Below, piece by piece: positions 17,019 through 18,818 of a stretch of DNA of 64,000 nt. Origin of the DNA: Gammaproteobacteria bacterium (GTDB taxonomy: Bacteria; Pseudomonadota; Gammaproteobacteria; SZUA-152). The DNA is taken from assembly GCA_021647705.1 (NCBI GenBank), contig JAKIUF010000009.1, positions 1-64,000 of the forward strand. The letters are read 5' to 3'. The notes below the pieces were generated by a model. It saw only the letters and a program-made list of their open reading frames with translations, had not been told where the DNA came from and did not search any database. A program made the position numbers and the translations under genes. Position 1 is the stretch's first letter. Each line of letters begins with the position of its first letter.

Positions 17019-18818
17019 TCAGTGTTTTCCGTTTGATGTTTTTGGGTTGTTCGCAATGTGTTCCTCGTTCTCGTCTTCATCCTCGTCCCTGTCGCAGTCC
17101 TCCGGCAGGGTAAAACGAAAAATTGATCCCTCGCCTTCGGCCGATTCCAGCATGATATCCCCGCCTAATTGCTCGACAATTTTCTTCACTACCGTCAGGC
17201 CTATGCCGGTGCTTTCCACCTTGTCGCGGGCGTTGAGGGTCTGAAATATCTGGAACACTTTGTCGTGGAACTCGGGAGCGATGCCTGGGCCGTCGTCGGC
17301 GACGCTGAATTCGTAGCCACCGTCTTTCAGGTTCCGGGCCGAGATTGTGATGTGGCCGTCCTCCGGACGGTCATGATATTTGATGGCGTTAGATAGCAGA
17401 TTACCGAACACTTGGGACAGGGGCAGGGGTGCCGTCACCAGACAAGGCATGTCCAGGGTGACGTCGATATGCAGGCCCGGCGGTGGTGCCAGTCCGTCCA
17501 GCACCTCGGCCAGTAGCAGGGTGGTGTCCACCATTTCGGTTTCCATGTCCACCCGTCCGACACGCGAATATTGCAGGATGCCGTTGATCAAACCCTCCAG
17601 GCGCTGCACTCGGCCGCGCAGCAGGCCCATCTGCTTGCGGGTGTCGTCGGTCATGACCTCTTCCAGATCCTCGGCCTTGGCTTGCGTTTCACGCTGCATG
17701 TGTTCCATCACCGCCAGGGCCTGCTTCTGCCCGGAAATGTCAGTGTGAGAACCGGTTATGCGAACCGGATTACCGTTGTCGTTGTGCAGCGTTGTGCCAC
17801 GGCAGAGAATCCAGGTGTAGCTGCCGTGTTTGTTTTTGAGTCGGTATTCAACAGTGAAGTCATCGGTTTCACCCTCCATGCAGGTCGTCCAGTTGTCCAG
17901 TGCCACACCCAGGTCATCCGGGTGGATCAGTGTTTGCAGAGTAGAGAAGTTGTTGGCCAGTTCGTCTTCCTGATAGTTGAGCATGGTTTTCCAGCGCGGC
18001 GAAAAATAGATTTGATCGGTGGTCAGGTCCCAATCCCAGATACCATCCCGGGTGCCGCGGGTGATGAGAGAAAACCGCTCTTCACTGACGCGTAACTCCT
18101 GCTCGGCCTGTCGGCGCTGGGTGATATCGATGCCGTAAATGTTGACACTAGTGTCATCGATATAGGGGATGGTCAACAGACTCGCTTTGTCGTCGATAAC
18201 GACCTCAAGTTGTTGTAACTGCCGGTGTTCGAATACGGCATCGATAGTGTCTCGCCATGTTTCCGGGGCCTGGTCACCTTGTTTGAGCTGTAATTTTTTC
18301 AGTAATGCCAGCGATGCCGGATTTCCGAAGAGTATTTTGTAATCCGTAGAGACTTTGAGCACTACCCCCGGGTTACTGGTGACGAATTGCGCCAGATATT
18401 TAATTTCTGCTTCGCTTTCTTTGCGTCGGGTGATGTCGCGCAGGATGCCGATGAATAATACTTGACCATTAGGCTGGCGCATTTCACTGATTGCCAGTTC
18501 CATGGGGAAGGTGCTGCCATCGCGACGCAGGGCTACTACCTCACGAGGGGCGATGCCGATGATGCTCCCCTGTCCGGATTGCAAATAATGTTGTAAATAG
18601 CCGTCATGCTGTTTGCTGTTCGCTTCGGGCATCAGACGATTGATGTTCTGCCCCATTACCTCATCGACGTGGTAACCGAACATTTTTTCCGCTGCGGGAT
18701 TAAACGAGTGGATCAGCCCTTGTGTATCGATGCTGATAATGCCATCGACGGCGTATTCCTGGATTAGCCGGGACAGGTCAGTGTCGAGGTGGTCCTTGAT
18801 CTGACTTTTCACGTTCAT
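17019..18818 (-). CDS. Multi-PAS sensor kinase lacking the phospho-acceptor histidine segment
   Basis: 599 residues from ATG 18818, whose ATGA overlaps the stop of the HDOD gene; the open frame further upstream is Arg/Pro-rich and not a real N-terminus. PAS domains lie at about 15-130 ([20 protein letters not shown]), 140-240 and 250-370 ([18 protein letters not shown]). The kinase part resumes at [15 protein letters not shown] and has intact [18 protein letters not shown] and STGIGLTVV motifs. Relative to the paralogue at 15538-17016, the first HisKA helix with [17 protein letters not shown] is missing without frame loss. It ends in an acidic tail ([11 protein letters not shown]). Autophosphorylation on the usual His is not possible. 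Confidence 0.88.
   Translation of the reverse strand: [599 protein letters not shown]

Follow-up and report, generated by a model that had tools for sequence, protein, structure and literature searches.

The HK1 locus and its gene content

The window, the 64,000-nucleotide stretch of DNA analysed here, comes from a deep-sea-vent bacterium and carries two adjacent sensor kinase genes on its minus strand, referred to as HK1 and HK2. The HK1 open reading frame spans exactly positions 17019-18818, with its ATG at 18818 and its TGA at 17019-17021. The features of the locus were as follows:

15046-15498, minus strand: single-domain response regulator, directly after HK2
15538-17016, minus strand: HK2, the intact paralogue, with a Tll0287-like sensor, HisKA (16012-16206) and HATPase_c
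17019-18818, minus strand: HK1, 599 aa, with PAS, PAS-like, PAS_3, linker helix, DHp helix 2 and HATPase_c, and without HisKA/H-box (open reading frame, translation and Pfam scan)
17100-17429, minus strand: HATPase_c (CA) of HK1, residues 464-573, intact (Pfam and sequence)
17559-17648, minus strand: DHp helix 2 kept in HK1 (alignment and low-confidence AlphaFold model)
17661-17672, minus strand: deletion junction at GAGGATCTGGAA (E-D-L-E), the one copy left of an imperfect 12-bp direct repeat (comparison with the orthologues in genomes G020 and G022; junction sequence)
17748-18014, minus strand: PAS_3 of HK1, residues 269-357, 82-83% identical to the G020 and G022 orthologues in the shared stretch
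18432-18770, minus strand: N-terminal PAS of HK1, residues 17-129 (Pfam)
18815-19669, minus strand: HDOD-domain gene upstream of HK1, whose stop overlaps the HK1 start (ATGA)

By Pfam scanning, HATPase_c (PF02518) matched HK1 at 96.4 bits and HK2 at approximately 96 bits, and the N, G1 (DDGPGIAP), F (FQIFQTL) and G2 ATP-binding boxes of HK1 all read intact, in agreement with an earlier note on this DNA that had described its ATP-binding domain as undamaged. HisKA (PF00512), which scored 35.8 bits in HK2, gave no match in the Pfam scan of HK1. The two proteins are 63% identical over helix 2 and the CA domain. The abrupt passage from KAEDLEEVM to TDDTRKQM to which the earlier note had drawn attention is present in the HK1 translation, unlike that of HK2 at 15538-17016.

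Genome-wide, 36 of the 50 HATPase_c matches have an adjoining HisKA. Strong matches without one comprise three kinases with another visible H-box, two GyrB/ParE proteins and four proteins that are CheA-type by length only; HK1 is the strongest HATPase_c match in the genome that lacks any H-box. The possibility that HK1 is one of many H-less kinases was ruled out, since the three kinases without a Pfam HisKA show an alternative H-box and two other matches are GyrB/ParE. His373, in the linker of HK1, was not favoured as a substitute acceptor, given that it also occurs in the G020 and G022 orthologues beside the real H-box and lies off the aligned position.

The missing H-box segment and its junction

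Codon-level comparison with the sister-genus orthologues in G020 and G022 showed that 36 codons, i.e., 108 bp, including the H-box, are absent from HK1. The proposal that the phospho-acceptor segment had been lost in frame was thereby confirmed, HisKA being found in the paralogue only, and the loss matches the previous estimate of about 100 bases. The missing segment is bounded by the imperfect 12-bp direct repeats GAGGCGCTGGAA and GAGGATCTGGAA, which are identical at 10 of 12 positions in G022, with a longest exact match of only 5-6 bases. Both repeats encode E-x-L-E in one and the same reading phase, so that any deletion running from one to the other must preserve the frame. Loss of DNA between short direct repeats without RecA is an established process (PMC5426353), and we infer that a single 108-bp deletion of this kind produced the HK1 junction. 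The junction itself, at 17661-17672, adjoins the interval of about 17650-17660 in which it had been placed. Gene conversion from HK2 was ruled out as the cause, since both sides of the junction (AKAE; DLEEvMTDD) follow the HK1 orthologues and not HK2.

Assembly error at this point, a concern raised in the earlier note, is unlikely because a second assembly carries the same junction. This record, JAKISS010000015.1, is a 53,618-bp contig (coverage 56.7x) of the metagenome-assembled genome D96SM.bin.23 (G004), from a Southwest Indian Ridge chimney. It covers positions 125-53744 of the window at 99.91% identity, with 44 mismatches, none of which falls in the first 34.7 kb. The contig of the window is 106,715 bp in length, and the differing contig ends and lengths indicate that the two are different assemblies. 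A chimney study using the sample name D96SM worked with 2x300-bp reads, assembled in SPAdes at k values as high as 127, a length far beyond the 12-bp repeat (PMC9174799). We consider it very improbable that the organism has the 108 bp and the assembler dropped them, or that the allele in the assembly comes from a minority strain. Such an artefact would be helped by the second record being a metagenome-assembled genome, by the window's genome being a fragmented draft, and by a sampling site that the two assemblies may share; it is opposed by the identical junction in assemblies with different contig ends and 44 mismatches elsewhere, as well as by the coverage of the second assembly and the large k.

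The D96SM.bin.23 bin is classified as a different species of the genus; it is 99.9% identical to the window over 53.6 kb but 84% identical at a further locus. A contig has thus probably been misplaced in one of the two bins, a point that likewise weighs on the side of an artefact. On the same figures, G004 was ruled out as an independent species sharing the deletion, the same organism mis-binned being likelier; JAKISS010000015.1 was therefore counted as the same organism and not as a second species. Mismatches between the two assemblies cluster at window positions 34832-53400 and are densest at 35.4-39.5 kb. The cluster beyond 34.8 kb may reflect a strain mixture or a recombined block.

Conservation, selection and turnover of the locus

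Every one of the 21 homologous kinase regions that were matched contained the motif SHDLK(A/S)PLR; their identity over helix 2 and the CA domain was 47.7-83%, and overlapping loci make two genes appear twice in this count. No other HK1-like copy without the H-box was found in 24 genomes of the order or 369 of the class. A match in genome G011 (C15), which covers query residues 231-410 and so crosses the junction, was ruled out as a second H-less kinase, as it belongs to a PAS-GGDEF protein. The G020 and G022 orthologues carry HisKA at 33.7 and 34.6 bits, respectively, and their full domain indicates that HK1 descends from a HisKA-type kinase. With the H-box in all homologous regions examined, the deletion in HK1 is derived and lineage-specific. 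Alignment of orthologues, which the earlier note had suggested as a check for a conserved deletion, thus gave the opposite result: the H-box is retained in every orthologue and close homologue examined, the second assembly of the locus excepted, which is an outcome that the note had itself named as refuting its proposal.

HK1 resembles the HisKA-type subgroup comprising HK2 and the kinases of G020 (C52) and G022 (C157) in its PAS_3, linker, DHp helix 2 and HATPase_c; with the G020 orthologue it shares 81-82% identity over these four parts, and the same operon neighbourhood. By its sequence, HK1 descends from a HisKA kinase and keeps a HATPase_c with four boxes, but lacks a HisKA with a phospho-acceptor His. 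Unlike the G020 and G022 orthologues, it is without the 36 H-box residues and an N-terminal membrane region, and has an extra PAS-like segment. The N-terminal difference extends over residues 1-230, with the extra segment at approximately 141-230; in the orthologues the N-terminal PAS is preceded by the membrane region (a NIT match in G022). This difference reads as a sensor-domain exchange.

Beyond the deletion, HK1 has accumulated no stop or frameshift. Over helix 2 and the CA domain, with HK2 as the outgroup, there were four unique amino acid changes on the window branch versus seven on the G020 branch, and pairwise dN/dS of the CA domain between the window and G020 was approximately 0.20 for HK1 and 0.12 for HK2. 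Helix 2 and the CA domain of HK1 therefore showed no faster evolution relative to G020, and this relative-rate test revealed neither pseudogene decay nor relaxed selection, a result that would look alike for a young deletion and for continued selection. The truncated allele is represented by two sequences, identical at HK1, which hold no post-deletion substitutions to compare. Either the event is recent, or selection on HK1 continues. The HK1 stop and HK2 start read TGA-TC-ATG, a gap of 2 bases; with packing this tight, HK2 can probably be translated only if ribosomes read through HK1. Selection to keep HK2 expressed would consequently remove an out-of-frame deletion, and this packing, together with the in-phase repeats, would be a simpler explanation of the kept frame, which makes the frame weak evidence for a function of HK1 itself.

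The surroundings of HK1 vary among relatives. In G020, the order HK1, HK2, response regulator, REC-HK, REC-HD and REC is that of the window. In G022, HK1 is fused to the HK2 catalytic domain, with the same downstream genes as in the window. The fusion (L054:2740-5427; 895 aa) takes its NIT, PAS domains and H-box from HK1, has an HK2-type CA domain and no HK2 sensor, and its catalytic domain is 81% identical to that of HK2 in the window; it looks like the outcome of unequal recombination between tandem paralogues. In genome G009, the HDOD gene directly adjoins HK2 and there is no HK1, and a close HK1 match is absent from most members of the genus. The HK1 locus is thus turning over: G009 has no HK1, G022 a fused one and the window a truncated one.

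Interpretation of the truncated kinase

We think it probable that HK1 is a recent kinase-dead allele of an ordinary PAS-PAS_3-HisKA-HATPase sensor kinase, lying beside a working paralogue, and that the deletion most likely silences the kinase instead of giving rise to a protein of a new type. In this lineage only, the H-box half of the DHp would have gone in one 108-bp deletion between short imperfect direct repeats, and the product would be unable to autophosphorylate or to hand phosphate to a response regulator. The truncated allele would be recent, and either a loss-of-function allele or one in the course of being lost. The cell would tolerate the loss because the adjacent HK2 and its response regulator are intact. 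The reading frame would survive through the same-phase repeats, and because an out-of-frame loss could hinder the translation of HK2, whose start lies 2 bases past the HK1 stop. In support of a disabled kinase, both G020, at the same operon place, and G022, in its fusion to HK2, have the H-box segment that HK1 lacks, and the locus is unstable elsewhere, as seen in the G022 fusion and the G009 absence. Counting against it are the intact ATP-binding motifs, the absence of a stop or frameshift and a number of amino acid changes that is not raised.

Those same kept features, i.e., frame, CA motifs and evolutionary rate, speak for a functional pseudokinase, a PAS-regulated ATP-binding protein that would modulate a partner or bind a response regulator without phosphotransfer. 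Regulatory pseudo-histidine kinases do exist, DivL (PMC4211667) and RocA (PMC7028121) being examples. Like HK1, DivL of Caulobacter has multiple PAS domains, a CA domain and no phosphorylatable His; it differs in having both DHp helices, with only the His changed, to a Tyr that is conserved across the clade, and in being functionally proven (PMC4211667), whereas in HK1 most of helix 1 is missing through a deletion that is not conserved. RocA, a dead sensor kinase acting on the output of another kinase, CovS, may be likened to HK1 in that respect, yet it combines a DHp whose His is dispensable with a degenerate CA domain (PMC7028121), the reverse of the intact CA and broken DHp of HK1. Both keep a whole DHp, and DivL docks its regulator on a surface that is partly lost in HK1. 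A DivL-like protein would show clade-wide loss of the His with the fold kept, and a complete DHp for dimerisation and docking; in HK1 the loss is confined to one lineage while 21 of 21 regions keep the His, and helix 1 is largely deleted. HK1 lacks both of the DivL/RocA-type features examined, conserved loss and complete DHp. The deletion is absent from the relatives searched outside this one lineage, and we regard a functional pseudokinase as rather unlikely, though as the chief alternative. The earlier note had concluded from the kept frame that HK1 is probably produced, as a pseudokinase or allosteric subunit; this found no support, the frame having a simpler explanation in the same-phase repeats and the packing with the downstream kinase.

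AlphaFold models of the linker-DHp-CA region, built from a six-sequence alignment with only moderate confidence (mean pLDDT 67 and 74), bear on the same question. In HK2, the model has a helix at residues 2-61 of the fragment, a loop and a helix at 68-96, forming a normal DHp hairpin. In HK1, the linker helix (362-386), a break at EVMT and helix 2 (391-420) were modelled with a pLDDT of only 54-59; a helical hairpin still forms, in which the linker helix may stand in for DHp helix 1. The 36 missing residues equal ten alpha-helix turns at 3.6 residues per turn. An in-phase slide of the linker helix into the place of helix 1 could keep a dimeric hairpin and a live ATPase, giving a "half-DHp" sensor in which PAS input would act on ATP binding with no phospho-acceptor involved, a speculative arrangement to which we assign little probability. 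The models thus weakly suggest a structural route to a folded pseudokinase, which they leave open.

Also improbable, to a degree that makes it a distant alternative, is a heterodimer in which HK1, through its intact CA domain, would phosphorylate HK2 on its histidine in trans. The resemblance of HK1 and HK2 over helix 2 and the CA domain would favour it, and an H-to-A mutant of EnvZ is able to phosphorylate a partner subunit that does not itself bind ATP (PMC4734776). However, dimerisation normally needs both DHp helices and most of helix 1 is gone in HK1, the sensor parts are unrelated (PAS domains versus Tll0287-like), and HK2 could act in cis or in trans, the trans mode not being general (PMC5956149). 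The pairing with the paralogue put forward in the earlier note accordingly drew little support, HK1 and HK2 sharing no sensor domain for it.

Read as a disabled kinase, HK1 would be a clean natural case of output loss, in which a short-repeat deletion takes the phospho-acceptor half of the DHp and spares the sensor, the frame and the ATP site. It also cautions that being in frame with an intact ATPase is not evidence of a functional pseudokinase. The case would gain in importance if population data showed the truncated allele to be maintained by selection.

Loss of catalytic motifs also marks a downstream neighbour of the REC-HD-GYP type (12314-13651, minus strand), in which AALLRNLGKL replaces AALLHDIGKI and GxGFP replaces GYP. 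Its degenerate motifs are common to G020, G022 and G009, i.e., to two genera, while G005 has the canonical form. The protein is probably a conserved, inactive HD-GYP, and its motif loss is conserved, unlike the HK1 deletion.
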